From Viola odorata (taxonomy: Eukaryota > Streptophyta > Magnoliopsida > Malpighiales > Violaceae): 64,000 bases of DNA. The notes under the pieces are model-generated. The model saw only the letters and a list, made by a program, of their open reading frames with translations, ran no database searches and was not told the origin of the DNA. Position 1 is the stretch's first letter; every line of letters starts with the position of its first letter. Below are positions 6,601 to 61,744 of this stretch, piece by piece. The stretch lies in assembly GCA_963691705.1 (NCBI GenBank), contig OY829539.1:21994407-22058406 (forward strand), read 5' to 3'. The position numbers were made by a program, and so were the translations under genes.

Positions 6601-7298
6601 TCAAAAGACCATGCCCACGACATGTCGATATTTCAAAGACCATGCCCACGGTCAAGACCATGCCCACAACATGTCAAAATTTTAATTTCAAAAGACCATG
6701 CCCACGGCATGTCGATATTTCAAAGACCATGCCCACGGCATGTCAAAATTTCAAAACCATGCCCACAGCATGTCAAAATTTTAATTTCAAAAGACCATGC
6801 CCACGGCATGTCGATATTTCAAAGACCATGCCCACGACATGTCAAAATTTCAAAACCATGCCCACAGCATGTCAAAATTTTAATTTCAAAAGACCTTGCC
6901 CACGGCATGTCGATATTTAAAAGACCATGCCCACAGCATGTCAAAATTTCAAGACCATGCCCACAGCATGTCAAAATTTTAATTTCAAAAGGCCATGCCC
7001 ACGGCATGTCAAAATTTCAAAACCATGCCCACAGCATGTCAAAATTTTAATTTCAAAAGACCATGCCCACGGCATGTCGATATTTCAAAGACCATGCCCA
7101 CGGCATGTCGATATTTCAGAGACCATGCCCACGGCATGTCAAAATTTCAATTTCAAAAGACCATGCTCACGGCACGTCGATATTTCAAAGACCATGCCCA
7201 CGGCATGTCGATATTTCAAAGACCATGCCCACGGCATGCCAAAATTTCAATTTCAAAAGACCATCCCCACGGCACGTCGATATTTCAAAGACCATGCC
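654..7298. repeat. Long-range duplication within the satellite, offset 5,968 bp
   Basis: The block beginning at about 654 recurs at about 6622 with the same order of variant monomers; landmarks at 654/6622, 959/6927, 1027/6995 and 1095/7063 all differ by 5,968 bp. The shared block runs for about 650-700 bp in each place. Both copies include the rare monomer ccatccccacggcacgtc, which also appears near 22131 and 29211. Only the two blocks at the ends of this interval are the duplicates; the DNA between them is ordinary array. Confidence 0.7.
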
Positions 7299-7845
7299 CA
7301 CAGCATGTCAAAATTTCAAGACCATGCCCACAGCATGTCAAAATTTTAATTTCAAAAGACCTTGCCCACGGCATGTCGATATTTAAAAGACCATGCCCAC
7401 AGCATGTCAAAATTTCAAGACCATGCCCACAGCATGTCAAAATTTTAATTTCAAAAGACCATGCCCACGGCATGTCGATATTTCAAAGACCATGCCCACG
7501 GCATGTCGATATTTCAAAGACCATGCCCACGGCATGTCAAAATTTCAATTTCAAAAGACCATGCCTACGGCACGTCGATATTTCAAAGACCATGCCCACG
7601 ACATGTCAAAATTTCAAGACCATGCCCACAGCATGTCAAAATTTTAATTTCAAAAGACCATGCCCACGACATGTCGATATTTCAAAGACCATGCCCACGG
7701 TCAAGACCATGCCCACAACATGTCAAAATTTTAATTTCAAAAGACCATGCCCACGGCATGTCGTTATTTCAAAGACCATGCCCACGGCATGTCAAAATTT
7801 CAAAACCATGCCCACAGCATGTGAAAATTTTAATTTCAAAAGACC

Positions 7846-8742
7846 ATGCCCACAGCATGTCGATATTTCAAAGACCATGCCCACGGCATGTCGATATTTC
7901 AGAGACCATGCCCACGGCATGTCAAAATTTCAATTTCAAAAGACCATGCTCACGGCACGTCGATATTTCACAGACCATGCCCACGGCATGTCGATATTTC
8001 AAAGACCATACCCACGGCATGTCAAAATTTCAATTTCAAAAGACCATGCCCACGGCACGTCGATATTTCAAAGACCATGCCCACGACATGTCAAAATTTC
8101 AAGACCATGCCCACAGCATGTCAAAATTTTAATTTCAAAAGACCATGCCCAGGGCATGTGGATATTTCAAAGTCCATGCCCACGGCATGTTGATATTTCA
8201 GAGACCATGCCCACGGCATGTCAAAATTTCAATTTCAAAAGACCATGCTCACGGCACGTCGATATTTCAAAGACCATGCCCACGGCATGTCGATATTTCA
8301 AAGACCATACCCACGGCATGTCAAAATTTCAATTTCAAAAGACCATGCCCACGGCACGTCGATATTTCAAAGACCATGCCCACGACATGTCAAAATTTCA
8401 AGACCATGCCCACAGCATGTCAAAATTTTAATTTCAAAAGACCATGCCCAGGGCATGTGGATATTTCAAAGTCCATGCCCACGGCATGTTGATATTTCAG
8501 AGACCATGCCCACGGCATGTCAAAATTTCAATTTCAAAAGACCATGCTCACGGCACGTCGATATTTCAAAGACCATGCCCACGGCATGTCGATATTTCAA
8601 AGACCATACCCACGGCATGTCAAAATTTCAATTTCAAAAGACCATGCCCACGGCACGTCGATATTTCAAAGACCATGCCCACGACATGTCAAAATTTCAA
8701 GACCATGCCCACAGCATGTCAAAATTTTAATTTCAAAAGACC
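7846..8742. repeat. 299-bp higher-order repeat, about three tandem copies
   Basis: The same series of variant monomers restarts at 7846, 8145 and 8444, a spacing of 299 bp. The second and third copies share the distinctive variants cccagggcatgtggatattt and cggcatgttgatattt. A related pair sits at 3120 and 3419, again 299 bp apart. The first copy differs at its left end, so two copies are nearly identical and one is related. Confidence 0.75.
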
Positions 8743-11700
8743 ATGCCCACGGCATGTCGATATTTCAAAGACCATGCCCACGGCATGTCAAAATTTCAAG
8801 ACCATGCCCACAGCATGTCAAAATTTTAATTTCAAAAGACCATGCCCACGGCATGTCGATATTTCAAAGACCATGCCCACGGCATGTCAAAATTTCAAAA
8901 CCATGCCCACAGAATGTCAAAATTTTAATTTCAAAAGACCTTGCCCACGGCATGTCGATATTTAAAAGACCATGCCCACAGCATGTCAAAATTTCAAGAC
9001 CATGCCCACAGCATGTCAAAATTTTAATTTCAAAAGACCATGCCCACGACATGTCGATATTTCAAAGACCATGCCCACGGTCAAGACCATGCCCACAACA
9101 TGTCAAAATTTTAATTTCAAAAGACCATACCCACGGCATGTCGATATTTCAAAGACCATGCCCACGGCATGTCAAAATTTCAAAACCATGCCCACAGCAT
9201 GTCAAAATTTTAATTTCAAAAGACCATGCCCACGGCATGTGGATATTTCAAAGTCCATGCCCACGGCATGTTGATATTTCAGAGACCATGCCCACGGCAT
9301 GTCAAAATTTCAATTTCAAAAGACCATGCTCACGGCACGTCGATATTTCACAGACCATGCCCACGACATGTCGATATTTCAAAGACCATACCCACGGCAT
9401 GTCAAAATTTCAATTTCAAAAGACCATGCCCACGGCACGTCGATATTTCAAAGACCATGCCCACGACATGTCAAAATTTCAAGACCATGCCCACAGCATG
9501 TCAAAATTTTAATTTCAAAAGACCATGCCCACGGCATGTCGATATTTCAAAGACCATGCCCACGGCATGTCAAAATTTCAGGACCATGCCCACAGCATGT
9601 CAAAATTTTAATTTCAAAAGACCATGCCCACGGCATGTCGATATTTCAAAGACCATGCCCACGGCATGTCAAAATTTCAAAACCATGCCCACAGAATGTC
9701 AAAATTTTAATTTCAAAAGACCTTGCCCACGGCATGTCGATATTTCAAAGACCATGCCCACGGCATGTCAAAATTTCAAAACCATGCCCACAGCATGTCA
9801 ATATTTTAATTTCAAAAGACCATGCCCACGGCATGTCGATATTTCAAAGACCATGCCCACGGTCAAGACCATGCCCACAACATGTCAAAATTTTAATTTC
9901 AAAAGACCATGCCCACGGCATGTCGATATTTCAAAGACCATGCCCACGGCATGTCAAAATTTCAAAACCATGCCCACAGCATGTCAAAATTTTAATTTCA
10001 AAAGACCATGCCCACGGCATGTCGATATTTCAAAGACCATGCCCACGACATGTCAAAATTTCAAAACCATGCCCACAGCATGTCAAAATTTTAATTTCAA
10101 AAGACCTTGCCCACGGCATGTCGATATTTAAAAGACCATGCCCACAGCATGTCAAAATTTCAAGACCATGCCCACAGCATGTCAAAATTTTAATTTCAAA
10201 AGGCCATGCCCACGGCATGTCAAAATTTCAATTTCAAAAGACCATGCTCACGGCACGTCGATATTTCAAAGACCATGCCCACGGCATGTCGATATTTCAA
10301 AGACCATACCCACGGCATGTCAAAATTTCAATTTCAAAAGACCATGCCCACGGCACGTCGATATTTCAAAGACCATGCCCACGACATGTCAAAATTTCAA
10401 GACCATGCCCACAGCATGTCAAAATTTTAATTTCAAAAGACCATGCCCACGGCATGTCGATATTTCAAAGACCATGCCCACGGCATGTCAAAATTTCAAG
10501 ACCATGCCCACAGCATGTCAAAATTTTAATTTCAAAAGACCATGCCCACGGCATGTCGATATTTCAAAGACCATGCCCACGGCATGTCAAAATTTCAAAA
10601 CCATGCCCACAGAATGTCAAAATTTTAATTTCAAAAGACCTTGCCCACGGCATGTCGATATTTAAAAGACCATGCCCACAGCATGTCAAAATTTCAAGAC
10701 CATGCCCACAGCATGTCAAAATTTTAATTTCAAAAGACCTTGCCCACGGCATGTCGATATTTAAAAGACCATGCCCACAGCATGTCAAAATTTCAAGACC
10801 ATGCCCACAGCATGTCAAAATTTTAATTTCAAAAGACCATGCCCACGGCATGTCGATATTTCAAAGACCATGCCCACGGCATGTCAAAATTTCAATTTCA
10901 AAAGACCATGCCTACGGCACGTCGATATTTCAAAGACCATGCCCACGACATGTCAAAATTTCAAGACCATGCCCACAGCATGTCAAAATTTTAATTTCAA
11001 AAGACCATGCCCACGACATGTCGATATTTCAAAGACCATGCCCACGGTCAAGACCATGCCCACAACATGTCAAAATTTTAATTTCAAAAGACCATACCCA
11101 CGGCATGTCGATATTTCAAAGACCATGCCCACGGCATGTCAAAATTTCAAAACCATGCCCACAGCATGTCAAAATTTTAATTTCAAAAGACCATGCCCAC
11201 GGCATGTGGATATTTCAAAGTCCATGCCCACGGCATGTTGATATTTCAGAGACCATGCCCACGGCATGTCAAAATTTCAATTTCAAAAGACCATGCTCAC
11301 GGCACGTCGATATTTCACAGACCATGCCCACGGTCAAGACCATGCCCACAACATGTCAAAATTTTAATTTCAAAAGACCATGCCCACGGCATGTCGATAT
11401 TTCAAAGACCATGCCCACGGCATGTCAAAATTTCAAAACCATTCCCACAGAATGTCAAAATTTTAATTTCAAAAGACCTTGCCCACGGCATGTCGATATT
11501 TCAAAGACCATGCCCACGACATGTCAAAATTTCAAAACCATGCCCACAGCATGTCAAAATTTTAATTTCAAAAGACCATGCCCACGGCATGTCGATATTT
11601 CAAAGACCATGCCCACGGTCAAGACCATGCCCACAACATGTCAAAATTTTAATTTCAAAAGACCATGCCCACGGCATGTCGATATTTCAAAGACCATGCC

Positions 11701-27586: not shown

Positions 27587-29689
27587 AAGACCATGCCCAC
27601 GGCATGTCAAAATTTCAAAACCATGCCCACAGCATGTCAAAATTTTAATTTCAAAAGACCATGCCCACGGCATGTCGATATTTCAAAGACCATGCCCACA
27701 ACATGTCAAAATTTTAATTTCAAAAGACCATGCCCACGGCATGTCGATATTTCAAAGACCATGCCCACGGCATGTCAAAATTTCAAAACCATGCCCACAG
27801 AATGTCAAAATTTTAATTTCAAAAGACCATGCCCACGGCATGTCGATATTTCAAAGACCATGCCCACGACATGTCAAAATTTCAAAACCATGCCCACAGC
27901 ATGTCAAAATTTTAATTTCAAAAGACCTAGCCCACGGCATGTCGATATTTAAAAGACCATGCCCACAGCATGTCAAAATTTCAAGACCATGCCCACAGCA
28001 TGTCAAAATTTTAATTTCAAAAGGCCATGCCCACGGCATGTCAAAATTTCAAAACCATGCCCACAGCATGTCAAAATTTTAATTTCAAAAGACCTTGCCC
28101 ACGGCATGTCGATATTTAAAAGACCATGCCCACAGCATGTCAAAATTTCAAGACCATTCCCACAGCATGTCAAAATTTTAATTTCAAAAGACCATGCCCA
28201 CGACATGTCGATACTTCAAAGACCATGCCCACAGCATGTCAAAATTTTAATTTCAAAAGACCTTGCCCACGGCATGTCGATATTTAAAAGACCATGCCCA
28301 CAACATGTCAAAATTTCAAGACCATGCCCACAGCATGTCAAAATTTTAATTTCAAAAGACCATGCCTACGGCATGTCGATATTTCAAAGACCATGCCCAC
28401 GGCATGTCGATATTTCAAAGACCATGCCCACGGCATGTCAAAATTTCAATTTCAAAAGACCATGCCCACGACACGTCGATATTTCAAAGACCATGCCCAC
28501 GACATGTCAAAATTTCAAGACCATGCCCACAGCATGTCAAAATTTTAATTTCAAAAGACCATGCCCACGACATGTCGATATTTCAAAGACCATGCCCACG
28601 GTCAAGACCATGCCCACAACATGTCAAAATTTTAATTTCAAAAGACCATGCCCACGGCATGTCGATATTTCAAAGACCATGCCCACGGCATGTCAAAATT
28701 TCAAAACCATGCCCACAGCATGTCAAAATTTTAATTTCAAAAGACCATGCCCACGGCATGTCTATATTTCAAAGACCATGCCCACGACATGTCAAAATTT
28801 CAAAACCATGCCCACAGCATGTCAAAATTTTAATTTCAAAAGACCTTGCCCACGGCATGTCGATATTTAAAAGACCATGCCCACAGCATGTCAAAATTTC
28901 AAGACCATGCCCACAGCATGTCAAAATTTTAATTTCAAAAGGCCATGCCCACGGCATGTCAAAATTTCAAAACCATGCCCACAGCATGTCAAAATTTTAA
29001 TTTCAAAAGACCATGCCCACGGCATGTCGATATTTCAAAGACCATGCCCACGGCATGTCGATATTTCAGAGACCATGCCCACGGCATGTCAAAATTTCAA
29101 TTTCAAAAGACCATGCTCACGGCACGTCGATATTTCAAAGACCATGCCCACGGCATGTCGATATTTCAAAGACCATGCCCACGGCATGCCAAAATTTCAA
29201 TTTCAAAAGACCATCCCCACGGCACGTCGATATTTCAAAGACCATGCCCACGACATGTCAAAATTTCAAGACCATGCCCACAGCATGTCAAAATTTCAAT
29301 TTCAAAAGACCATGCCCACGGCACGTCGATATTTCAAAGACCATGCCCACGACATGTCAAAATTTCAAGACCATGCCCACAGCATGTCAAAATTTTAATT
29401 TCAAAAGACCATGCCCACGACATGTCGATATTTCAAAGACCATGCCCACGGCATGTCAAAATTTCAAGACCATGCCCACAGCATGTCAAAATTTTAATTT
29501 CAAAAGACCATGCCCACGACATGTCAAAATTTCAATTTCAAAAGACCATGCCCACGGCATGTCGATATTTCAAAGACCATGCCCACGGCATGTCAAAATT
29601 TCAAGACCATGCCCACAGCATGTCAAAATTTTAATTTCAAAAGACCATGCCCACGACCTGTCGATATTTCAAAGACCATGCCCACGGCA

Positions 29690-29974
29690 TGTCAAAATTT
29701 CACAAATTTTTAAAACCATGCTCAACGGCATGTTAAATTTCACAAATTTTTAAAACCATGCTCAACGGTATGTTCAAATTTCACAAATTTCAAAACCATG
29801 CTCAACGGCATGTTCAAATTTCACAAATTTCAAAACCATGCTCAACGGCATGTTCAAATTTCACAAATTTTTAAAACCATGCTCAACGGCATGTTCAAAT
29901 TTCACAAATTTCAAAACCATGCTCAACGGCATGTTCAAATTTCACAAATTTTTAAAACCATGCTCAACGGTATG
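29690..29974. repeat. 40/41-bp tandem repeats at the retrotransposon edge of the satellite
   Basis: Here the monomer changes to accatgctcaacggcatgt followed by tcaaatttcacaaatttcaaa. ATG landmarks at 29718, 29758, 29798, 29838, 29879, 29919 and 29960 give a period of 40 or 41 bp; the extra base comes from ttttt/tttc variants. The last unit runs directly into the reverse complement of the pol stop codon at 29975-29977. The unit aligns with the 38-bp satellite monomer with a few single-base gaps, so it is a plausible ancestor. In the element's orientation (minus strand) it occupies the start of the 3' untranslated region. Confidence 0.9.
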
Positions 29975-30190
29975 TCAAATTCTAGCATGATACAATTTTA
30001 ATCTAGCAATATTCCAAGAGTTAGGTAAGGGAGTACCGTCAACCGCTTCGAGGTGATACGCTCCCTTTCTGATAACACGAGTGACGCGGTACGGGCCTTC
30101 CCAGCTTGAGCTGAGCTTCCGCATTCGTTGGCCCGCCGCTCGTTTGTCCCTGAGCACGAGGTCTCCCGCCTTGAGCGGCGGGTGTCGTTG
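29975..30190 (-). pseudogene. Integrase C-terminal end (Tat-lineage pol), fused to gag
   Basis: The minus-strand frame ending at 29975 contains GDLVLRDKRAAGQ, then GPYRVTRVIRKGAYHLEAVD and LPNSWNIARLKLYHARI, the usual C-terminal tail of Ty3/gypsy integrase (G-x-Y-x-LE-x-x-DG followed by P-x-x-WN-x-x-x-L). The homologous segment in element 2 lies at about 34,860-35,060. Upstream of residues PPLKAGD the sequence no longer matches integrase but late gag, in a different frame, so this is a deletion junction at about 30,180-30,200. The stop codon TGA is at 29975-29977 and overlaps the terminal 40-bp satellite unit. It is a fragment without catalytic residues. Confidence 0.85.
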
Positions 30191-30199
30191 GGGTAATCT

Positions 30200-32183
30200 C
30201 ATCCAAGAACGACGCGCCCCCAGCGATAATGTTAATAATGGGGATGTCCTCGTCATACATCATCAACGCTTCTTTCCCCTTTGCCTCAGAAGTTCCGCTA
30301 TTCCCCAGGGGAGGAGGCAATTGATGGTCACCTAACACCCCGTGCGGAGGGTCACTGCTGGTTTCTTCTCTCATACGAGCGACGATTTCTCCAAGATAGG
30401 CTTCTTCCAACAGGCGCTTTATTGCTGACTTCAATTCCCTGCATACCTCTATAGAATGCCCCTTGACTTTATGGAATTTACAAAAGGAATTTTTTCTTCA
30501 TCCCATGACCACCCCTGGCTTCACAGGAGCTGGATAGCGGATCGGCAGGTTCCGCTGCTGAATGATGGCTAACATTTCCGCTCGTGGGAGCGTAAGGGGA
30601 GGGAGGTCAGAATCGTACGTTCGACCCTTAGGGGGATCCTTCTGTCGCTGAACATTCAGACCGTCTCCCCTTCCTCTAGGGTAATTACCCTTCGGGCGAT
30701 TCGACGCCTTGGGGATGTAATCTTTCCACCGGGTGTATTCATCACCCGGATGCGTGTCTTGGGCCCTACTGCCTTGAGCGGTGGGAGCGGGAGGGGCGTT
30801 CTGGGGAGCATCCCGTATCCTGTTTCTGTATTCATCCTCTTCCATTCTCGCATAACTGTGAGCTTTCAACCTTAGCACGTCTACAGTCGTTGGGGGATCC
30901 ACCATTAGCGTATCTCTAAGTTTCCCATATCTACCATTCCGCTTCAAAGCCTCTATGGCAAAGTCGATGGTGATACCAGGCGTCAATGACATTTCCGTAT
31001 CAAAACGACCAAGATAGTTGTTCAACGACTCCTCTGGCCTTCTACATATATCGAACAAAGCTGCAGCAGACTTCCGAATGAGGATAGTTGTGCTAAAGCG
31101 ACTCTTGAACTTGGCCTCTAGTTGTAGAAAATTATCAATTGATCGAGTAGGTAGTCCTTCAAACCAGAGGCGGGCTACTTCTGACAGCGTCACAACAAAT
31201 ATCTGACACAACGCCGCGTCATTATGTGTTTGAAACTGGACGAAGTCCTTCACCTTATTAAGATGTGAGATGGGGTCTCTGATGCCGTCGTATGACTCCA
31301 TGGGGAGCTTAATATGTCGGCTGACCCTGTGGTGCCTTATATGGTGGGTGAAAGGATGACCAGCGGTGTCATCCAGGATCTCACGATCATGACAAGGAGG
31401 AGACATGTCCAGGTATCGCCTGTGCCTTCGAGGCTCCGGGGTGCGATGCTGCCGGGGAGACCGGCTGCGGCTCCTGGGTGAACGGGATCGACGCCTCCTA
31501 CTGCCTGATCTCTCACTCCGCTCCATAGATACCTCCCTACTGGCTCCCTCTCTTCTGCCGTCCCAACGCTCTCCGTATTCATCTAGCGGCCGCTCTACTT
31601 GAGAGACAGGAATCCGCGGTATCCGCGGTATGTAGTGCTCCTCCTGTCCGCCTGCCAGTTGCGCGAAGCCGAATGGCGTGCTTATCGCAGGTGAGGTCAG
31701 AGGGACACTCATCTGGCGTCGAGGCGATACTGGTCGATCAGCGACGATAGACGAAGTGAAAATAACTCGAGGAGGCACACCTGATGTCGCGGTACTAGAA
31801 GTGGGGCCTGCGGCCATCCCGATCAAATAATCCAAGTGGACACGAAGAGCTAACATGGAGCTTACCGAGGGAGTAGCGAGGCTATCCATCCCAGATCTTA
31901 CAAGTGTAGGGACGGAGCGACTGGATCCGCCCACGTGAGAAAATGGGGCACCCATTGAGGAGGCAAGGGAACCCATTTGCATAAATGGAGTACTCGTTTG
32001 AGAAAACGGGGTACCCGGTTGAGAAAACGATGAGCCAGCTGTCAATCCGAAAAGAAAGTCTGTCTGCGCAGAGGAGGTTTCAGGTGATGTGATATACGTA
32101 CTGGACGAAGACGTGGAAAAAAGTGTCCTACGCGTGTGACCGCCACGAGTATGAGGGGGCGTGGATTCTGAATCCGAAGCCAT
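30200..32183 (-). pseudogene. gag: Gag of Tat-lineage element 1, one nonsense codon, 3' end deleted
   Basis: The capsid/nucleocapsid polyprotein starts at ATG 32183 (MASDSESTPPHTRGG), the same start as in element 2. A Ser/Thr/Pro-rich N-terminus with repeated PFSQ-like segments is followed by an Arg/Ser-rich stretch, then the gag core with YDGIRDPISHLNKVKDF, LWFEGLPTRSIDNF and RFDTEMSLTPGI. The frame stays open for 561 codons to a single TGA at 30498-30500, then continues in the same frame through a zinc-knuckle-like CX2HX4HX4C motif (CKFHKVKGHSIEVC) to the segment IINIIAGG near 30,230. There it meets the deletion junction with integrase. Most residues expected of the family are present, so this copy decayed recently. 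The nonsense codon is consistent with one substitution. Confidence 0.85.
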
Positions 32184-32250
32184 GATCCTTCGACTCTCAA
32201 AAAGAAAAATAGAGCTTGGTTACTAAGGAAAACTCACTTAATCAACCAAA

Positions 32251-32269
32251 GCTCTCAATGAAAACACCA
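32251..32269 (-). promoter_or_regulatory. Primer-binding site of element 1
   Basis: On the minus strand TGGTGTTTTCATTGAGAGC lies two bases after the 3' edge of the 5' LTR. It begins with TGG, as a site pairing with the CCA end of a tRNA must. The same site in element 2 (40769-40787) reads TGGTGCTTTCGTTGAGAGC. I cannot name the tRNA from memory with certainty. Confidence 0.6.
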
Positions 32270-32271
32270 TT

Positions 32272-32752
32272 TGATAAGAGTCCGAGGGGTACTGAGCAGG
32301 ATTGGCTTGATCTGGGGCGGTCGGGAACACTGTACTAGGGGCCTTTATCACCTGCAATGCGCCGGAGGGGGTCTCCGGCGTAAACACTCCGATGCCAAAG
32401 TCAGTGTGAGTAGTAAAAGTGGCAGGGGTTCAGTACGCTATCTTAAGCTTACCCTCTTGTCTGAAAATGTGAGGGTATTTATAGACAAAGGGAAGAGTGT
32501 ACCGAAAGGGGTAGGAATAGTCCCTGGTAGATGTCGTTGGAGTGATATGTGTCGCTGGAGTGCCATAGAGTGAAGTCACGCAGGATGACGTCATGCGGAG
32601 TGACGTCAGGGATGACCTGGGATGGGGTGTCGCCGTGCGGATGTCGCATGAGAGCCCCCCCACTGATGTCGACCATCCCAGGGTTGGCCGCCAGGTTAGG
32701 GGTGGCAAGAACAGGGTCTCATCTCCCGCGACAGGTACAGTATGCTCACCGG
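32272..32752 (-). repeat. 5' LTR of element 1 (outer end approximate)
   Basis: The inner edge is TGATAAGAG at 32272 on the plus strand (LTR end ...TTATCA on the minus strand), matching TGATAAGATT at 40791 in element 2. Shared landmarks are a GC-rich hairpin around gcgccggaggggg, a TATA box (TATAAATACCC, minus strand, 32473-32483) and gaccatcccagggttg near 32670. The outer edge is not clear; homology to the element 2 LTR fades near 32,752, where a coiled-coil coding fragment begins. Confidence 0.65.
32473..32483 (-). promoter_or_regulatory. LTR TATA box, element 1
   Basis: TATAAATACCC on the minus strand is conserved at the corresponding place in the element 2 LTR (40990-41000), which supports it as the core promoter of the element. 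Confidence 0.6.
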
Positions 32753-33127
32753 GTCACCCGGCGGGGTAGTGGAGATGTCGCTTCTGTGGTATCGATAGTT
32801 ATCAGAGAGCAAGAGGTCGCTAGGGCGTCTGATCTTGATGCTGCTCTGACGGCAGAGAGGGCTAAGAATGTCGCGCTGGAGGAAGAGAAGACGGCATTGA
32901 AAGAGGAAAAAGCCACACTAGAGAGGGAGTCGGCAGAAAGGCGTAAATGGTACATTGAGACAACTGCCGGTATCATGTCTGACTGCTTTGTGCAGATTCA
33001 TGGGGAGGAGGTGTACCGCGCTGATGCCCTTATTGACGCTTTTCGGGAGAGGTCAGGGATCCTCACAGATGATCATTTTCGCGGGGTAAAGACGGGGGGG
33101 GGGGGGGCGCGAGGGGCAAGGGGATAG
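32753..33127 (+). pseudogene. C-terminal fragment of an unrecognised coiled-coil protein
   Basis: The plus-strand frame ending with TAG at 33125-33127 encodes a Glu/Lys/Ala-rich heptad-like stretch (EQEVARASDLDAALTAERA, then EEEKTALKEEKATLERESAE) followed by a more globular tail with YIETTAGIMSDCFVQIHGEE. The open frame extends upstream into the element 1 LTR to 32549, but that part is LTR sequence on the opposite strand, so the coding fragment is taken to start near the LTR edge. Coding-like composition lies only in the 32,790-33,090 part. It may be the end of an ORF of another transposable element cut by the LTR. A run of 14 G near the end makes the last residues unreliable. I do not recognise the family. 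Confidence 0.45.
33094..33107. repeat. Homopolymer run of 14 G
   Basis: An uninterrupted G14 tract inside the coiled-coil frame. Such tracts are prone to sequencing length errors, so the reading frame past it (the Gly-rich tail) is not trustworthy. Confidence 0.9.
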
Positions 33128-34240: not shown

Positions 34241-34760
34241 TTAGCCTGGAATGTGCCTCATCTTAGTGAGTCGTCTGATCAAGATCGGCCATCACAAGGG
34301 TAGGATTTTCACTTCCAGGCGTTGATACCTCACATCCCTGGAATCGTGCCTCGTTTTAGTGAGTCGTCTGTATTAGTCCGGTTATCACAAGGATAGGATT
34401 TTCACTTCCAGGATGGAGTTACTATCTCTCTAGGGCATGCCTCATCTTAGTGAGTCGTCTATGTTAGCCCGATTATCACAAGGATAGGATTTTCACTCCT
34501 TGAGACGCCGGGACGTGCCTCTTCTTAGTGGGCCGCCTGTGTTAGCACGGTTGCCACAAGGATAGGACTTTTCACTCCCGAGGGTGTCGGGGCATGCCTC
34601 GTCTTAGTGTGCCATCTGTGTTAGCACGGTTACCACAAGGATAGGACTTTTCACTCCCGACACTAAGATTTTAGGTATGCCAGGGCGTGCCTCGTCTTAG
34701 TGAGCCGTCTGATCAGGACCGGCCGTCACAAGGATAGGACTTTTCACTCCTGGCACCCTT
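34241..34760. repeat. Six tandem repeats of 77-93 bp in the 3' region of element 2
   Basis: The motif cacaaggrtaggattttcac recurs at 34293, 34386, 34477, 34554, 34634 and 34727, giving periods of 93, 91, 77, 80 and 93 bp. Each unit also carries gcctcrtcttagtgagycgtct. The repeats begin about 100 bp beyond the element 2 pol stop codon, the same place where element 1 meets the large satellite, but the sequence is unrelated to that satellite. Confidence 0.9.
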
Positions 34761-34859: not shown

Positions 34860-36012
34860 TCAAATTCTAGCATGGTCTAATTTCAAACGAGCTAGGTTCC
34901 AAGAGTTGGGTAAGGGAGTACCGTCAAGTGTTTCTAGGTGATATGCTCCCTTTCCAATAACATGGGTGGCGCGGTATGGGCCGTCCCAATTCGGGCTGAT
35001 TTTCCCCACGAGTTGTCCAGCTGCTCATTTGTCCCTGAGTACCAAGTCTCATGCTTTCAGGAATCGCTCCTTGACGCGCCGGTTGTGATAACGCGCCATT
35101 TTTTCTTATAATGTAGTGTTTTCAGGAGGGTTTCCTCATGTAGTTCTGGTAACGCATCGAGGTTCGCTTGTAACCTCTCCTCATTTAGCTCTTCGTTGAA
35201 GTATGCTACTCGCAGGCTCAAAGTACCGATTTCTACCGGTGTAACGGCCTCAGTGCCGAAAGCCAATGTGAAAGGTGTTTCTCTAGTGCTGGTTTTAACG
35301 GTCATGCGGTATGCCCACATCACATATGGCAGCTCGTCTGCCCATTTCTTTTTGGACCCTTCCAGGTTTTTCTTAATACCACTGAGAATGCTTCAATTGG
35401 TCACCTCCGCTTGACCGTTGGTCTGCGGGCGAGCCACGGAAGAGAATCTTTGCTCGATTTGGAATTCCGCGCATTGGTCTCTAAAAATTGACTAGTGAAT
35501 TGTGTCCCATTATCACTGACTAGCACACGGGGTACACCGAACCGCATGATAATTTGGTGCTTAAAGAAACGCCAAATTTTTTCTGTTGTGATGTTGGCCA
35601 CCACTTCCACTTTTGCCCATTTCGTGAAGTAGTCCACCGCCACGACCACGAGTTTTAGCTGAGACCTTGCCTTTGGAAGCGGGCCTAGGATATCAATCCC
35701 CCATTTTGCAAAAGGACAAGGAGCCACAATTTCAAAGATTTCTGTTGCGGGTTGTCGAGGAATCTTAGAGAACTCCTGACATTTCTGACAAGTTCGTACG
35801 TAATTATGGCAATCCCTACGAATAGTAGGCCAATAAAATCCTGACCTGAAAACTTGCGCGGCCAAGGTACCGCCTGATGCATGCATGCCACATATTCCTT
35901 CATGGATTTCTCGTAAGGTATGAAGACCCTCTTGTTCCGTTATACACTTGGCAGTTGGGTGAGAAAAACATCTCCTAACCAGTTCCCCGTCATAATACGT
36001 ACACCGTGCCAC
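34860..36012 (-). pseudogene. Integrase of element 2, frameshifted
   Basis: Integrase joins element cDNA to host DNA. Visible parts in order: an HHCC zinc-binding domain (HEGICGMH ... CQKCQ, about 35,770-35,920), the catalytic core with first Asp in WGIDILGPLPKA and second Asp in VLVSDNGTQFTSQFL, then a frameshift near 35,470 that throws out the segment holding the catalytic Glu. The frame resumes with WAYRMTVKTSTRETPF and FGTEAVTPVEIG (35,057-35,323), and a second shift precedes the C-terminal tail whose TGA is at 34860-34862. The tail matches that retained by element 1. Confidence 0.88.
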
Positions 36013-36264
36013 TTATTTCAGCACTTTTCTCCTCTTGGCATTATCCGCAGGTAATTCCTCATGTTTCAAGTATTTTATTACGGAGATTCGCTAGTCGTTT
36101 TCAATTTCTTCAATGCAAAGCGACGCTTGCTCCTCCATGAAGGAAGGTACGAATATTTCTCGATAGTACACACCCTTAGGTATGGACGCTTCCGGGTTCA
36201 CTGCAAGTTTGGCAAGGTTGTCTGCCTCAGCGTTGTCCTTTCGAGGGATATGCTCAAAGCTAAC

Positions 36265-36843
36265 CTACATGCCACTTTTCTTTATTTCCAACAGCTCGCG
36301 TTTCACTTTAGCAGGATATTGAACCATGATGGGCTCTCTGGCCTGAGAGTGTCCCAAGACTTTGTCTATTATCCACTTGGAATCTCCGCAGATTTTTAGT
36401 CGCAAGTCTCCCATCATTCCCGTATCGTGTATGGCTTTGGTGGAGAAGCTTCTTCCTATTCTAAGTCCAGCCAGTAATGCCTCATACTCCGCCGCGTTAT
36501 TGGATAACGGTTGTAGGATTCTGATGGCGTATCGTATCTGTATATCATGCGGCCTGATTATGAAGATTCTGGCTCCGGCTAGTTCTTGATTCTTGGCTCC
36601 ATCCACGTGGATGACCCACAAGTCAGTGTAGGTTTCAGGGAACAGGAGATCCAAGTCATCTTTTTCTTCTTCAGGTAGGTCCGTCAATGGATCTTGCGTA
36701 AAGGTGCACTCAGCTATGAAGTTTGCTAGGACTTGAGCTTTTATAGATGGTCGGGCTTTATACTGCAACCCATATTTCTCGAGTTCGATGACCCAGATCA
36801 GCATTCTTCTTGAAGACTCGGGTTTCCAAAATATCCTTTTCAA
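36265..36843 (-). pseudogene. Archaeal-type second RNase H of element 2
   Basis: After the RT-linked RNase H, the same frame continues with WVIHVDGAKNQELAGARI, SNNAAEYEALLAGLRIG and LKICGDSKWIIDKVLGHSQA, the Asp-Glu-Asp pattern of an RNase H of the type found as an extra domain in Tat-lineage elements. Its presence is the main lineage evidence here. The frame is interrupted at 36265-36267 and at 36847-36849, the latter between the two RNase H domains at a place where relatives have Gln (CAA to TAA). Confidence 0.85.
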
Positions 36844-36846
36844 AGG

Positions 36847-38292
36847 TTAGTCTATAAGTACGATGATGGGGTGGGCCTGGAAATATCTATCCATTTTCCG
36901 CGTGGTATGTATTAACGCAAACGCCATTTTCTCAATGTGGGCATATCGCAGCTCGGCATCTTTCAAAACATGACCCACAAAGTACACAAGGTGGTGTGTG
37001 TGGTTGTCGTCTCGCACAAAGACAACACTAACCACTTCATCGGCAACCCCAAGGTATAAGTACAGGGTGTCGCCTGGTTCTGGTCTTGTTAACACCAGGT
37101 CAGATGATAAATAGGCTTTTAGGCCCGTAAATGCCTCTTCACATTTTGTTGTCCACCCAAAAGGGGCTTTTTTATGTATGACCTTGAAAAAGGGCAGGCA
37201 TCTCTCGCCTTGATTAGAAATAAACCATCCTAGAGCGATAACGCGCCCTGTTAGTTTTTGTACCTCCTTGACGATTCGAGGAGATATCATATCCTAGATA
37301 GCTTTGATTTTTGAGGGATTGGGCTGGATACCCTTCTGACTGACCACGTAACCCAAAAATTTACCCGTTTGGAACGCGAACATGCATTTACAGGGGTTCA
37401 GCTTCATTTTGTATTCTCTCATCACATCAAAAACTTCTTTCAAGTCGACCAAGTGGTCCTTGAAGCTTCGACTTTTGACTAGTATATCATCAACGTAGGC
37501 TTCCACGTTCTTTCCAATTAGGTTTTCGAATACTTTATTCGCCATGCGCTAGAAGGTTGCCCCAGCATTCTTCAGCCCAAACGGCATCGCCGTATAGCAG
37601 TAAGTGGCCTTTGGAGTGATGAAGGCGGTCTTTTCTTCGTCTTCAACAGCCATAGGGATTTGATGATACCCGGAGTTGGCATCTAATGAGCTTAGATAGG
37701 CGTACCCGACAGTCTGATCGACTAGTTGGTCGATTCGAGGGAGCGGGTAGCAATCCTTGGGACAAGCATCATTCATGTCAGTAAAGTCAATGCGCATACG
37801 CTAGTCTCCGTTGAGCTTTGGAACGAGAATTGGGTTAGCTAACCAGGTTGGATATTGGACCTCTCGGATGAAACCTGTGTCTAAGAGCTTTGACACCTCC
37901 TTGTCAATGGCTAAAGTTTTCTCCATAGAAAATGCTCATCGTTTCTGTTGGATCGGTTTGACGTAGGGATCAATATTAAGTCGATGTTCTGCTACCTCTC
38001 GCGAGATACCAGGCATATCCGCAGGCTTCCACGTGAACTCTCTTTTACATTTGTTCAATAGTCGAGCTAGTTGGAGGTTTTCTTCTGGGCTTAGCTTCTC
38101 GCTAACTAGGAAATTTACTTCGTTGATCCCGTTAACTGATACGGGTACCATTTTGTCCACAGGCTGAGTGCGTTTCTCATCATTTGGCCCATCTGGATCT
38201 ACAGTGACACACACATATCTATCACAACTTTTCTGAGTAATGAGTAGGTAACACTCAGCTGCCAATTTCTGATCGCCTTTGATTGAGACCAC
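36847..38292 (-). pseudogene. Reverse transcriptase and RNase H of element 2, several in-frame stops
   Basis: RT copies the element RNA into DNA; RNase H removes the RNA strand. In order: PR-RT linker (LSPEENLQLARLL, ADMPGISREVAEHRLN), RT fingers (NDACPKDCYPLPRIDQLVD), SSLDANSGYHQIPM, MPFGLKNAGATF, the active site AYVDDILVKS, LGYVVSQKGIQPNP, then RNase H with AELRYAHIEKMAFALI and YFQAHPIIVLID. Stops fall at 37936, 37801, 37549, 37294 and 36847, all in one frame with no indel. Several sit where relatives have Arg, Trp or Gln, that is CGA, TGG or CAG/CAA codons altered by C-to-T or G-to-A changes. Confidence 0.9.
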
Positions 38293-38298
38293 TCCATC

Positions 38299-38712
38299 TC
38301 AGGAGGGATATTTCATCCTCAAATGCTTTTGAGATATCGTTGCTCCAAAACGATTGAGGAACGGTCGCCCAAGTATGGCATTATAGGGCAGGGTTAGGTT
38401 TACGACCAAAACGAACAACTCCTCTGACTGCTTGGACGTGTCTTCTCTAAAGTACACTGGCAGCATCGTGAGTCCAGTCACCGGGATTGGAACTCCATCT
38501 ACCCCAATTATTGGCTTCTTGCAGGGTGTAAGCTCGCTGTCGGGATGCTTCATGAGGTTGTAAGCCTCTAATGAAAATAGATTTACCGCGCTTCCATTGT
38601 CAACAAGAGTTCTTCTAACTCCATGATTGCCGATAACGGGTGTAACTACTAACTTGTCGTTATGCGGGAACACAATACCTTTCTCGTCCTCTTCGGAGAA
38701 AGATAACACCAT
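38299..38712 (-). pseudogene. Aspartic protease of element 2
   Basis: The retropepsin that would cut the polyprotein. The active-site region reads TLVDNGSAVNLFSLEAY, and the flap and C-terminal part ends with YNAILGRPFLNRFGATIS, the usual order for Ty3/gypsy protease. It lies in the same frame as gag upstream and RT downstream, separated by TGA codons at 38713-38715 and 38299-38301. The catalytic Asp is retained. Confidence 0.88.
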
Positions 38713-40704
38713 TCAATCTAAGGCACCTATCACTTCGCTTTTCATTAACACGCCCTCTCGCTTCCGCTTATCTCCTGCTGTGGGCGTTAACTGCACAGGC
38801 TCGTCAAGGTACGGCGTGCCTCCCGCGATAATATTGATGATGGAAACATCATCTTTGTCAATCGTAAGCGTTTCTCTACCTCTCCCAGTAGGAGTAGCAT
38901 TGTTTCCTGGAGCGCGAGGAGGTGTCTGTCGGTTATCTAACTTCCTGCTTGTCGGATTGTTCCTGACTTCTTCTCTTGCCTTAGTGGCAAATTCCCCGAG
39001 GTAACCTTCTTCTACTAAGCGCTCTATCGCTAGCTTTAATTCTCTGTACACGTCTATGGAGTGTCCCTTGACTTTATGAAATTTGCAGAAAGCGTTTTTC
39101 CTTCCTCTCATGACTACTCCTGGCTTTACAGGGGCTGGATAACGGATAGGTAGGTTCTGTTGTTCCACATTCGCTAAGATTTCCACTCTTGGGAATATGA
39201 GGGAAGGAAGGTCTGGGTCATAAATTTGGCCCTTGGGGGGATCTACCTACTGCCGAGTGGGGGAGTTACTGGGTCTTCCTCTTGAGAAGTTGCCTCTTCG
39301 CCGATTGGAGGTCTTGGGGATGTGATCTTTTCATTGGGCGTAATCATCGATAAAATGATCATCAAAGGTCGCGTTGATAGGAACGTTGGGAACCTGAGGC
39401 GCGTTTTGTGGCATGTTTCGGGTTATGACCATATTTTCTTCCTCTTCCATCCTTGCGTAATTATGGGCTTTCAATCTCAACGCGTCCAAATTCATTGGGG
39501 GGTCCACCATTAAAGTGTCTCGTAGTTTCTCATAACGACAGTTCCGCTTCAAGGCTTCCACAATGAAATCAATGGTAACGCCTGGCGTTAATGACATCTC
39601 CATATCGAAACGACTGAGGAAATCTTTAAAAGATTCCTGAGGTTTCCTGTGTATATCGAATAAAGCTGCGGCGGATTTCTTGATGGGGACAGCGGTACTA
39701 AACCGATTTTGAAACTTAGACTCCAGCTGTGAAAAACTGTCAATGGATCTTGCTGGGAGACCTTCAAACCAAAGGTGCGCGACTCCTGAAAATATCATAA
39801 TAAATATTTGGCACAAAGCCACGTCACTGTGAGTTTGGAATTGCACAAAGTCTTTCACCTTGTTAAGGTGGGAAATGGGATCCTTGGTTCCGTCATAGGA
39901 CTCCGTAGGGAGTTTCACATGCCGACTGACTTTGTGACGTCTTATGCGATGGCTAAATGGGTGACCTAAGGTTTCGTCGAGGATTTCGCGAGTATGGCGA
40001 TATGGGGACACTTCCAGATAACATCTTCAGTTTCGTGGATCGGGGGTGTGATGTCGCCTTGGAGTCTAGCTACGACTCCGTGGTGAGCGGGTTCGGTATT
40101 TTCTGCTACTCGATCTCTCACTACGCTCGGGGGATACATCTCTATCCATTTCCCCTTGTCGACCGTCCCAACAATCTCTATACTCGTCATGTCATCGCTC
40201 CTCTTGGGAGATGGGAATTTATCGCGTGTGCGGTACGTAAGGCTCTATTCGCCCATGAGCGAGTTGCACAAGGCTGGCTTGTGTAGTCGTCGCGGATAAG
40301 GTCAACGGAATGTTTCTATGTTGTGGAGGTGATAACGCTTGTTTAGTGACAATAGATGAAGTGAAAATAGTCTGAAAAGGAACAATCAGTCCGGAAACAC
40401 TGGGCGTGAATCTTGCGGCTAACTCGGTTAAATGATCTAACTTAGCACGAAGAGCAGATATTGAATTCACAAAAGGGTTATTAGTGTTATCTATCATAGA
40501 TCCCATTAGAAGAGGAGTGGAAAAGCTAGATCCCGTCATTTGGGAAGGTGGAATACCGATCTGAGGAAATGACGTGCTCACTGTGGGCCCGAAAAGAGTT
40601 CCATGCACTGTGGTAAAGATGTCGGTAGAAGTAGAAGGAAAAATCTCTCTACGAGTGAGAATACCACGAGATTGAGGAGGTGTAGATTCTGAATCGGAAG
40701 CCAT
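38713..40704 (-). pseudogene. gag: Gag of element 2, in-frame stops, altered zinc knuckle
   Basis: The start ATG 40704 begins MASDSESTPPQSRGI, homologous to element 1. Segments follow in one frame: Ser/Thr-rich N-terminus (to a stop at 40219), an Arg/Ser-rich stretch with several stops (40,012-40,218), gag core with YDGTKDPISHLNKVKDF, LWFEGLPARSIDSF and RFDMEMSLTPGV (to 39331), and a C-terminal part with IINIIAGGTPYLDEP. The zinc-knuckle-like motif reads CKFHKVKGHSIDVY, so the last Cys present in element 1 is replaced by Tyr. All interruptions are nonsense codons. Confidence 0.85.
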
Positions 40705-40768
40705 AATCCTTCAATTCCTAGAAAAGACAGAGCTTGGAAATTAAGGAGGCTCACTTAATTAAACCAAA

Positions 40769-40787
40769 GCTCTCAACGAAAGCACCA
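40769..40787 (-). promoter_or_regulatory. Primer-binding site of element 2
   Basis: TGGTGCTTTCGTTGAGAGC on the minus strand, three bases inside the LTR edge at 40791. Conserved with element 1 at 32251-32269. Starts with TGG as expected for pairing with a tRNA CCA end. Confidence 0.65.
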
Positions 40788-40790
40788 GTT

Positions 40791-41223
40791 TGATAAGATT
40801 TGAAATTCTGGGGAACCAGGGGTGAGGACTATGGCCGCTCAAAGTTGCTATACTCGTCGTCCGGTGTACCTGCAAAGCGCCGGAGGGGGAGCTCCGGCGT
40901 AGACACTCTGATGCTTAAGTCAGTATGGTTGTTCCAAATGGCAGGGGTTCGACTGGCAATCATAGGTTTACCTCTCATCTTGAATGGTGGGGTATTTATA
41001 GGCGCAAAGGCGGGCGTTACCTCTAGGGGGTGGGCGTTATCTAGGAAAGATAACGCCTCGAGTGACGTCATGGCTGACCTGGGATGGGATAACGCCGTGC
41101 GCGTGGACAGATAACGCGTGACCATCCCAGGGTTCCTTGCTAGGTGAAGGGCGGCATCTTCGTTGAGGCGCGCATGATAGGAGCTACAGTAATCCGGCCT
41201 TATCGCTGAGTGTAAATACGACA
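40791..41223 (-). repeat. 5' LTR of element 2, 433 bp
   Basis: On the minus strand it starts TGTCGTATTTACAC (41223) and ends CTTATCA (40791), giving TG...CA termini. It contains a TATA box (TATAAATACCC, 40990-41000), the GC-rich gcgccggagggggagctccggcgt hairpin region near 40878, and gaccatcccagggttcc near 41119 shared with the element 1 LTR. It abuts a plus-strand Ty3 coding fragment at 41224, so the element inserted into an older retrotransposon. Confidence 0.75.
40990..41000 (-). promoter_or_regulatory. LTR TATA box, element 2
   Basis: TATAAATACCC on the minus strand, conserved in the element 1 LTR; probable core promoter of the element. Confidence 0.6.
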
Positions 41224-41650
41224 ATGCCCCTAGAATTGCCTCTATTGTTATCACCCATGTTGGATTTAATTACTAAAGTGCCTAGTTATGCTAAGTTACT
41301 AAAAATATTATGCACTGACAAGAGAAAACTTGTAGGTGTTGAAAGGGTTAATCTTAACCCAAATGTTTCTGCAGTTTTACAGGCTAAGCTTCTAGAAAAG
41401 TGTAAGGATCAAGGCACATTTACAATCCCATGCAAGATAGGAACACAAGGTTGTCAGAAAATCCTTCTGCGATTCAGGGCTGGAATCAATATGATGTCTT
41501 TGAATGAATATGAGACGCTGCAGATGGGAACGATGAAGGAAACCCAAGTGGTGATCCAGCTTGCCGACGGGTCAGTAATACATTGAAAAGGTGTGGTAGA
41601 GGATGTACTTGTACAGGTAAATGAATTTATTTATCCTGTTGATTTTTTAT
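41224..41650 (+). pseudogene. Gag-protease fragment of another Ty3/gypsy element
   Basis: The plus-strand frame from the LTR edge reads VPSYAKLLKILCTDKRKLVG, NVSAVLQAKLLEKCKD and GTFTIPCKIGTQGCQKILL, a conserved gag-protease junction of plant Ty3/gypsy elements, then a degenerate active site (LRFRAGINMMSLNEYE, where relatives have D-x-GAS) and VVIQLADGS. A TGA at 41584-41586 interrupts it, and VVEDVLVQVNEFIYPVDF continues in frame after it. The catalytic Asp is absent, so the protease would be dead. The fragment is cut on the left by element 2 and fades at about 41,650. Lineage uncertain; Athila-like is my best guess. Confidence 0.75.
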
Positions 41651-49225: not shown

Positions 49226-50873
49226 TGATGACGTGCTTGTCGAGGGCACGATCAAATAATTACAACTTATCACATGCAACAAAAAGGATTGAAGACAGTG
49301 GCAAGAGGTTCGATCCACAGAGAAAGGTGAAGACATACACTAGACAAAACCAGATATAAAGTAAAACAATAAAAGAAACAAAAAGGGGGGTTTTGGTTGG
49401 TTAATCTAGTTAACCAAGATAGAGATGACTGCTAACAAGATAATTAATAAAAACAGAAATCAAGGGCACGAAAGCAAAACACAATCAGGGGCAAGACATG
49501 CAAACAGAAATCAAGGGCATGACATGCAAACAAAAATCAAATAAAGAAATAAAGTCAGAAGAGAAGAAACTAAAAGCAATAAAATCAGAAGAGCAGATAA
49601 AAAAGATTCCTACCAAAGGTTTTTCTTGGGTTGCGTCGAGGGCATGAAAATCTCTTGACCTTGAGGGCTAGATAATTATCGGTGTAGAAATATTCTATTC
49701 TCATGCCATAGACCTGCTATAGGGACCGCGTTTCCACACCGCATCCCCTACTTACCTTCTTAGATAAAAGTCACCCCCCGTTTCTACATATGAGGTGACC
49801 TTGACGTTCCGCCATCCTCCCAGGCACGAATGCGGGGAGGCCACACTCAGAACGCCCATGAAGGGGAGGTAAGACAGATCTAGGACGTGATAGCTCAGCT
49901 TGTCAGACTCGTATCACATACCCTAATCGGTTGTTTACCCCTAGATGAAGACCTCTCGCGCTGTCTCCCCTAGGTGTCTACAATTATCTCAAGGCTTCGC
50001 GTCAGTTATAACCAAGAGAATGATAGTAATCATCTAGGTCTAGATATTAGTTGGCCAGACTACTAATCTGGCCCTAGACGAATTAACAAGAAACCGATAA
50101 ACAATCGAATACAACAATAAGAATATATTAAACACAATTAGGCCTATTAACTACCCATGCAACCCTCAAAATACCTCTGCTAAGAAGGGAGAATCTAGCT
50201 ACTCATACCACAAAACAAGTAAACAAAATAGGAAAATAAAGATTGCATAAAAGAAGAAGAACAAGAAGAATAAAACTATAAATGTTACCGGCCGGAGCAA
50301 AGCTCCAGTTAAGTTCAATGGCTGCTGGAAATGGATGCCTCCGCCACCACCCAAAAGAGGGAGGAGAGAAAAGGAGGTGGCTCCCAAAAGAAGAAAGTGG
50401 AAAAATATTTACAAGATGTGATGTGTGTGTCCTCAAACCCTAAAACTAGAGGCTTATATAGTGTCTAGCCCACAAGAAGACAAATTCCAGCTAAGGGATT
50501 ACAAAAAGACAAATTCCAGCCAAGTGGAGAGAGTGACAGCACATGGAGCGTGCTGGAATATTCTGGAATCTTCTAGATATGCAAGGAATCCCGTGAGAAT
50601 CTTTGGAGATTCGTCTATTTGGCTTTGTAGAGATATCGCGGACGAGAGACTGCTCACTGGTCTGGTTAGCTTTCGAGGGCTCGATGACATTCTGATCTTC
50701 TAGGCCTTGAAGCATGAAATCCTCATAAATACTCCAAAAATGCTTCTTTTCGATCTTTTTCTTCTATTGACGCTGATCTGCAATAAAGATTCGAATAAGG
50801 GTCAAATAGCGAAATCAAGCCCCCGAAAGGGCTAGAAAAGAAGGTAAAATCATGACCATGGAACGTGCTATCA
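49226..50873 (-). repeat. 3' LTR of the nested non-autonomous element, 1,648 bp
   Basis: It aligns along its whole length with 54133-55806. The 26-bp length difference is accounted for by one copy of a tandem motif (agaaatcaagggcacgacat type) near 49,450-49,530, present once more in the other LTR. A TATATAAG box on the minus strand lies at 50453-50460. Open frames inside it are not genes. Confidence 0.88.
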
Positions 50874-54132: not shown

Positions 54133-55806
54133 TGATGACATGCTTGTTGACGGCACGATCAAATAATTACAACTTATCACATGCAACAAAAAGGATTGAA
54201 GACAGTGGCAAGAGGTTCGATCCACAGAGAAAGGTGAAGACATACACTATACAAGACCAGATATAAAGTAAAACAATAAAAGAAACAAAAAGGGGGGTTT
54301 TGGTTGGTTAATCTAGTTAACCAAGATAGAGATGACTGCTATCAAGACAATTAATAAAAACAGAAATCAAGGGCACGAAAGCAAAACACAATCAGGGGCA
54401 AGACATGCAAATAGAAATCAAGGGCACAACATGCAAATAGAAATCAAAGGCATGACATTCAAACAGAAATCAAATAAAGAAATAAAGTCAGAAGAGAAGA
54501 AACTAAAAGCAATAAAATCAGAAGAGTAGATAAGAAAGATTCCTAGTAAAGGTTTTTCTCGGGCTGCGTCGAGGGTATGAAAATCTCTTGACCTCGAGGG
54601 CTAGATAATCATCGGTGCAGAAATATTCTATTCTCATGCCATAGACCTGCTCTAGGGACCGCGTTTCCACACCGCATCCCCTACTTACCTTCTTAGATAA
54701 AAGTCACCCGCCGTTTCCACATATGAGGTGACCTTGACGTTCCGCCATCCTCCCAGGCACGAATGCGGGGAGGCCACACTCAGAACGCCCATGAAGGGGA
54801 GGTAAGACAGATCTAGGGCGTGATAGCTCAGCTTGTCAGACTCGTATCACATACCCTAATCGGTTGTTTACCCCTAGATGAAGACCTCTCGCGTTGTCTC
54901 CCCTAGCTGTCTACTATTATCTCAAGGCTTCGCGTCAGTTATAACCAAGAGAATGACAGTAATCATCTAGGTCTAGATATTAGTTGGCCAGACTACTAAT
55001 CTGGCCCTAGACGAATTAACAAGAAACCGATAAACAATCGAATACAACAATAAGAATATATTAAACACAATTATGCCTCTTAACTACCCATGCAACCCTC
55101 AAAATACCTCTGTTAAGAAGGGAGAATCTAGCTACTCATACCACAAAACAAGTAAACAAAATAGGAAAAGAAAGATTGCATAAAAGAAGAAGAACAAGAA
55201 GAATAAAACTATAAATGTTACCGGCCGGAGCTTTGCTCCGGTTAAGTTCAATGGCTGCTGGAAATGGATGCCTCCGCCACCACCTAAAAGAGGGAGGAGA
55301 GAAAAGGAGGCGGCTCCCAAAAGAAGAAAGTGGAAAAATATTTACAAGATGTGATGTGTGTGTCCTCAAACCCTAAAACTAGAGGCTTATATAGTGTCTA
55401 GCCCACAAGAAGACAAATTCCAGCTAAGGGATTACAAAAAGACAAATTCCAGCTAAGGGGAGAGAGTGACAGCACATGGAGCGTGCTGGAATATTCTGGA
55501 ATCTTCTAGATATACAAGGAATCCCGTGAGAATCTTTGGAGATTCGTCTATTTGGCTTTGCAGAGATATCGCGGGTGAGAGACTGCTCACTGGTCTAGTT
55601 AGCTTTCGAGGGCTCGACGACATTCTGATCTTCTAGGCCTTGAAGCATGAAATCCTCAGAAATACTCCAAAAATGCTTCTTTTCGATCTTTTCCTTCTAT
55701 TGACGCTGATCTGCAATAAATATTGGAATAAGGGTCAAATAGCAGAATCAAGCCCCCGAAAGGGCTAGAAAATAAGGTAAAATCATGACCATGAAACGTG
55801 CTATCA
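54133..55806 (-). repeat. 5' LTR of the nested non-autonomous element, 1,674 bp
   Basis: TG...CA bounded, matching the 3' LTR at 49226-50873 except for scattered substitutions and one extra 26-bp tandem copy near 54,400-54,450. A TATATAAG box on the minus strand is at 55386-55393. Confidence 0.88.
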
Positions 55807-55924: not shown

Positions 55925-55926
55925 TG

Positions 55927-61636: not shown

Positions 61637-61744
61637 CCTCTTCGCTCACACCTAGTGAGTCCTATCCAATTTTCGCGTCAATTCCAAGCCTTTGAACTAG
61701 ATCGACAATTCAACACAGGCCTAGGCAACTAGGATCGTATCATG

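Follow-up and report, generated by a model that had tools for sequence, protein, structure and literature searches.

How did a satellite array come to begin at the stop codon of a retrotransposon pol gene, and what lies at its other end? The window considered here, a stretch of 64,000 nucleotides of the Viola odorata genome (C3:21994407-22058406 of 699,142,476 bases in 26 contigs, at 22 of the 77 Mb of C3), contains such a border. The earlier note, based on the window alone, had described it as the junction between a donor element and a satellite at least 29.7 kb long. The relevant features of the window are the following, with the evidence for each.

1-29702, plus strand: expanded satellite of ~99-bp trimers (31 + 30/31 + 38 bp units) with higher-order blocks; TRF, unit listing and block comparison; extends to the left up to C3:21918147 by probes.
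29703-29981, plus strand: 40-bp sub-array, seven units of 40-41 bp, the unexpanded part beside pol; TRF and unit listing.
29975-29977, minus strand: pol stop codon TGA (TCA on the plus strand), within the last repeat unit; sequence reading.
29975-30179, minus strand: pol 3' end, 205 bp, the sole pol remnant in element 1; 92.9-95.5% identity to 20 copies.
30179-30180, minus strand: joint of gag and the pol end, most of pol missing; absent from 39 other scored copies.
30180-32271, minus strand: gag region and 5' leader, with the ORF 30498-32183 containing Retrotrans_gag (PF03732); ORF and domain match.
32272-32804, minus strand: 5' LTR of element 1, TGATAAG...TTATCA, 533 bp; LTR comparison and end motifs.
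32805-33127, plus strand: antisense ORF of the host element, C-terminal portion, interrupted by the insertion; ORF comparison, with the complementary N-terminal portion on the far side of element 1, at C3 ~21908309-21910078.
34245-34756, plus strand: different tandem repeats, of 79-93 bp, in the equivalent part of the 3'UTR of element 2, which is probably the host; TRF.
34860-40790, minus strand: gag-pol of element 2, related Retand-type, with broken frames; ORFs, alignment and domain matches.
40791-41253, minus strand: 463-bp LTR-like end of element 2, TGATAAG...TTATCA; identified by end motifs and position.

In the window, TRF reports arrays of two kinds, one of 31/99 bp (1-29702) and one of 40 bp (29667-29981). 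The reverse-strand TGA at 29975-29977 falls within the final 40-bp unit, so that no spacer separates the array from pol, as the earlier note had stated. Its observation that element 2 shares sequence up to the stop codon and then diverges is also borne out: 29975-30165 aligns with 34860-35050 (79.6% identity over 191 columns), and nothing aligns beyond. It overlooked that the pol part of element 1 comprises only the last 205 bp (29975-30179). Read on the minus strand, element 1 consists of the 5' LTR, the leader, gag, and then directly this pol end. At the 39 other scored places the match ends at query position 480 or before, which corresponds to window position 30179, and thus the joint is private to element 1 among the scored copies. 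Compared with the LTRs of L020 and L025 and with an LTR inserted in L014, that of element 1 shows 88.8-93.3% identity. The region 31416-32805 is 91.6% identical to the stretch L092, situated ~3 kb upstream of the pol stretch L023; these two stretches appear to belong to one element, the comparison covering the stretches themselves. A protein search with gag gave three matches of 24-30% identity. We also considered a chimera of two families and rejected it, as the LTR, gag, pol end and 3'UTR of element 1 all match one family.

The open frame of L023 contains RT_RNaseH (4-81), RVT_3 (137-270), Integrase_H2C2 (388-414) and rve (431-529) domains. According to the relevant passages of Neumann et al. 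(PMC6317226), an additional RNase H (aRH) lies between RH and INT in Ogre and Retand elements, and we read the RVT_3 domain of L023 as a candidate aRH. The RH-aRH-INT order of the Tat clade of Ty3/gypsy elements, the lineage already named from the window alone, is thus seen in the L023 copy, element 1 itself having no such part of pol. In the passages of PMC11963269 used here, an antisense Transposase_28 (PF04195) ORF between pol and the 3' LTR marks the Retand lineage. Two such ORFs lie inside the 3'UTR of element 1, at L071:6479-7261 (E 2.3e-7) and L071:4139-4768 (E 7.9e-10), both on the plus strand, antisense to gag-pol. On the basis of the antisense ORFs and the Tat domain order, element 1 is provisionally assigned to the Retand-type LTR retrotransposons.

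A first look at the genome gave 3,464 candidates; 40 places were scored, window included, and 20 of the 39 others were retrieved with about 7.7 kb on the 3' side. Since the query contained seven 40-bp units and 40 of the 3,464 candidates were scored, the sample favours repeat-bearing copies. Both unit types were found directly behind pol in all 20 retrieved copies. The boundary between the array and the 3'UTR is at the same sequence in 19 of them, the exception being L019, where the edge was not located. The 19 measured short arrays span 632-1182 bp, with a median of 832 bp.

In the L028 copy both LTR ends are present and each is bordered on the outside by ACTAC, a 5-bp target duplication; none is readable in element 1, which is without its 3' LTR. 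The LTRs of L028 are 96.5% identical over the 229 bp compared, the 5' LTR sequence being partial. The distance from its pol end to the 3' LTR is about 9.06 kb by coordinates, the sequence examined covering all but about 4 kb of the interior.

The 3'UTR of the family is itself variable. Its long form is about 8 kb and contains two Transposase_28 ORFs (L071 1790-7515); in the short form of L025 (3593-4209 oriented) about 5.6 kb are absent beside the 3' LTR. A second tandem repeat, of ~132 bp and variable between copies, occurs at L071 8956-9178 and equivalents. The pol gene of L014 contains a same-family LTR in reverse (8080-8618 oriented) and resumes at 8637; a second reverse LTR piece (9525-9901 oriented) reaches the end of that stretch.

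The array continues far to the left of the window. All 44 outward probes, with starts at most 2.5 kb apart, are satellite in the plus orientation; continuity was checked at this spacing, so shorter interruptions are possible. The outermost probe, L054, contains the array edge and hence some non-array DNA. In this one assembly the array occupies C3:21918147-22024387, that is, 106,241 bp or 128 times the median of the arrays in the other copies. Its far end, 76 kb beyond the window, reads ..CACAACAATTGTTA|GACCATGCC.. at C3:21918147, in a register matching the other copies, and is followed by the 3'UTR of the family (86-96% identity in the larger aligned pieces adjoining the array). Both ends of the long array match the pol/array and array/3'UTR borders of other copies. 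From the outer end of the 5' LTR to the far end of the 3'UTR the coordinates give about 117 kb, 91% of it array.

These data modify the initial description. The figure of at least 29.7 kb was true and limited by the window, and the array does occupy the 3'UTR place, as short arrays of the same units lie between pol and the 3'UTR in 20 of 20 copies. A copy with units between pol and the 3' LTR, which the earlier note had sought as a check, is closely approximated by L028, which retains an LTR end on either side and has some tens of units. Repeat-free copies, named there as evidence to the contrary, did not occur among the 20 retrieved with the repeat-containing query. Of the supposed junction of donor and satellite, the pol end and the link to the element stand; the separate satellite does not. 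At its far end the array passes, in the same register, into the 3'UTR of the element itself, which places the satellite inside one insertion.

The 3'UTR of element 1 stops at C3 ~21910085 (L071 ~1786), a point that in L020 and L025 is the beginning of the 3' LTR. Neither a 3' LTR nor a target duplication of element 1 was found at the far end, so that element 1 offers no LTR pair by which to close or date the insertion. The LTR is missing to within ~5 bp of its inner border, perhaps with the last five bases remaining, and the adjoining DNA is the antisense ORF of a related element. Having lost most of pol and the 3' LTR, the copy is immobile on its own.

Two candidate LTR placements were rejected. 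The pair L071:153-636 and 6953-7439 (68% identity) does not qualify, as the first member is part of coding DNA that resembles the Transposase_28 ORF region containing the second. A 3' LTR situated just further left was not found either, the next 4 kb (L072) holding only a related LTR in the opposite orientation. This LTR-like sequence (L072 about 3112-3684, C3 ~21907411-21907983, limits by end motifs) is 72-82% identical in pieces, and to its left there are 3'UTR-like DNA and an antisense ORF. Together, these observations characterise the region as a nest of related elements.

The N-terminal part of the split antisense ORF corresponds to L071 about 10-1779. Aligned with the similar antisense ORF of element 1 itself, the outer flanks cover L071 8589-8801 and 6807-8307, and are collinear and non-overlapping, with ~0.25 kb missing between them. 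The host of element 1 seems to have been a related element, probably element 2, entered in its 3' region; subsequently, both the 3' LTR of element 1 and about 0.25 kb of the host would have been lost by deletion.

Further repeats occur elsewhere in the window. The 1.65-kb direct repeats at 49226-50873 and 54133-55806 (95% identity, TG...CA ends) are likely LTRs of another element; they are adjoined by a 1.4-kb direct repeat (55825-57226 and 61643-63095, 88% identity). A 48-bp tandem repeat (57651-57826, 3.7 copies) lies within a small ORF.

The window contains 912 units, and extrapolation to the whole array gives roughly 3,200. Unit triplets sum to 98-100 bp in 743 of 910 cases in the window, compared with 44 of 379 in the 19 short arrays; thus the expanded array is an array of 31-30/31-38 trimers. 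In the short arrays the 30-bp unit occurs three times, always in L011 (C4), where the unit listing shows 31-30-38 runs within a 1.1-kb array. A 22-base diagnostic of the 38-bp variant was found 193 times in the window, once in L011 and never in the other 19 copies. Similarly, a diagnostic 31-mer occurs 158 times in the window, once in L011 (reverse strand) and in none of the other 19 copies. Genome-wide it has 569 forward matches and one reverse match, the latter presumably being L011. The 100 matches listed are all in C3:21918341-21938237; 311 of the 569 forward matches are outside the window and the listed places, at a density consistent with the remaining 56 kb of the array. For a marker derived from an 18-bp truncated unit, the window gave 33 matches, the 44 probes 14 and the 20 copies none.

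A more general 51-mer matches at 412 places, 356 of them forward and 56 reverse. The 100 matches listed are apparently in contig order and so cover C1, C2 and C3 up to 21.9 Mb; 71 are in the long array and 29 in 15 clusters elsewhere, each spanning less than 1 kb by exact matches, so that the real arrays may be somewhat longer. Among the matches listed, the repeat was found dispersed as short arrays, with one long array. Long arrays on several or all chromosomes, as in a conventional satellite, were not observed among the 31-mer matches listed. An array occurring genome-wide with no link to the element, the other outcome that had been held to count against the initial description, is likewise not what was observed, the long array not being genome-wide among the matches listed.

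In two trees of 3'UTR pieces, built from 19 and 18 of the 20 copies, a sister relationship of L011 and the window copy finds no support, although the two have the rare unit in common. Each unit contains a short dyad, and three units folded as DNA gave z of -2.0 to -2.7 relative to shuffles, a modest signal with a possible, but by no means certain, bearing on instability.

The internal structure of the array indicates how it may have grown. Ungapped duplicated blocks of at least 600 bp, the floor of the search, and at least 98% identity cover 94.7% of the 29.7 kb. The longest include blocks of 2,597 bp (lag 1,903), 2,281 bp (lag 918) and 1,675 bp (lag 1,382), which are 99.3-99.5% identical. The flanks of element 1 differ from other copies by about 4-8%. 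The simplest reading is that block duplication was later than the insertion; block identity could also reflect homogenisation, not solely recent duplication.

We propose, with a probability of roughly 0.9, that a Retand-type 3'UTR repeat was amplified in situ, at a single locus and after insertion, by block duplication. The founder would have inserted on the minus strand in the 3' region of a related element, carrying a short two-part array between the pol stop and the 3'UTR; such arrays are seen in the relatives, and we infer the same for element 1. The 31/30/38-bp part would then have been amplified in place from about 1 kb to about 106 kb, the 40-bp part beside pol staying as it was. This would have involved repeated duplication of blocks up to 2.6 kb, which are directly visible in the array; the agent may have been unequal exchange or replication-based duplication. 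Loss of most of pol and of the 3' LTR would have left an immobile copy. In-place amplification at one locus would make this a young single-locus satellite, with both borders still consisting of element sequence.

A bolder reading, which we put forward tentatively and consider rather doubtful, is that the satellite has been caught at its first locus: the chain of amplification lies inside one dead element, and the array-specific unit occurs once elsewhere (L011), so that the succession of steps could be reconstructed. Taken to its extreme, this reading would have the growth of this one copy released by the loss of pol and the 3' LTR, or by the hairpin-forming unit.

Growth in place might have proceeded not by unequal exchange but via extrachromosomal circles, excised and reinserted, with rolling-circle amplification. 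The near-identical blocks of 0.6-2.6 kb at many distances, some tandem (lags 918, 1382, 1903) and some not, agree with this possibility. However, no circle-specific sign was found, and the uniform orientation is compatible with both mechanisms; we regard circles as a possible but unlikely route.

It is very improbable that the length of the array is an assembly artefact. The length is taken from a single assembly. However, the 40 longest listed block pairs are 98.6-99.5% identical at varied distances, so that the blocks are distinguishable. Moreover, 5797 of the 9854 60-mers of the 44 out-of-window probes are also present in the window part and the rest are not (L054 being partly non-array), and both borders are biologically sensible.

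The repeat might also stem from an older satellite, part of which was captured and then dispersed by the family, with the long array as a relic of the source; this alternative is named for the Ogre satellites in the cited part of Vondrak et al. (PMC7004042). It is hard to reconcile with a long array that lies inside an element copy, and with 15 outside clusters among the matches listed (C1, C2 and C3 before the array) that are each shorter than 1 kb. Further, 19 of 20 copies lack the diagnostic of the 38-bp variant, so the array looks derived, not ancestral. We thus consider capture highly improbable.

Growth during reverse transcription, by template switching between co-packaged RNAs, has been proposed for short arrays (Macas et al. 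2009, as cited in PMC7004042), and in that case the array would have arrived long. The variation of array length from 632 to 1182 bp among 19 dispersed copies may be of this origin. As an explanation of the long array we give it very little credence, as an internal region of more than 100 kb is too long for packaging; to our knowledge, it exceeds any packaged retrotransposon RNA by far. The nested, multi-scale blocks at one locus fit stepwise duplication at the DNA level instead.

Finally, it is hardly credible that the element entered a pre-existing satellite array or became its neighbour by chance: the array is indeed far longer than in the 19 measured copies and the element's own 3' LTR is missing, but both array ends are element-internal borders, the far one already contradicting such an origin, the units are present in 20 of 20 retrieved copies, and the diagnostic 31-mer is confined to the locus and L011 among the matches listed and counted.

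Amplification of a 3'UTR repeat has precedents. It has been published that Tat-clade 3'UTR repeats seed plant satellites, the main study, cited here in part, relying on reads and FISH (PMC7004042). In the passages concerned, nine FabTR satellites of Lathyrus sativus derive from short arrays downstream of Ogre gag-pol, FabTR-51 arrays are graded 'from <5 to 174 kb', and FabTR-54 and -57 are often in elements without pol (Vondrak et al., PMC7004042). This resembles the present locus in that short arrays reside in dispersed Tat-clade elements and are occasionally expanded. The Lathyrus satellites, as described in these passages, belong to the Ogre lineage, were studied by read statistics and FISH, and form many expanded arrays, mostly in primary constrictions, whereas the present case is Retand-type, with one locus, both borders at the base level and the array unit found once outside. 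Two features of a retrotransposon-derived satellite were observed here, namely short arrays at a fixed place behind pol and one array of satellite length. The view that the hypervariable 3'UTR of plant LTR retrotransposons seeds satellites goes back to Macas et al. 2009, compared here as cited in PMC7004042, and our model shares with it the role of 3'UTR repeats as seeds. Internal tandem repeats likewise seed a satellite in the foldback transposon Tetris of Drosophila virilis, which differs in being a DNA transposon of an animal (PMC4079207, cited in part).

The passages of Vicient 2025 considered (PMC11963269) describe, in the regions between pol and the 3' LTR of Retand elements, antisense Transposase_28 ORFs and tandem arrays, often beside pol and variable in copy number, with units of 8-100 bp and at most 85 repeats. 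Against this maximum, the array has roughly 3,200 units by extrapolation. The distance from pol to the 3' LTR given there is 2,933-6,566 bp, compared with about 9.06 kb in L028. A literature search with the 15-base core of the repeat unit gave no match, and a search for expanded Retand-derived satellite arrays yielded just a general review; the further published Retand passages that were covered contain nothing on expanded arrays. What is new is an unusually well resolved Retand-type case, with one locus, both borders and 106 kb.

At one assembled locus both borders of the array can be read, and the array, seemingly confined to this place, can be compared with the unexpanded state in 19 measured copies and with a copy that has the precursor trimer. 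The order and mechanism of the birth of a satellite become testable in a single plant and its relatives, in particular where growth begins, what the block sizes are, and whether growth follows the loss of mobility. The locus shows how satellite DNA can be born, here by the probable multiplication of a short 3'UTR repeat in a single copy of a retrotransposon.
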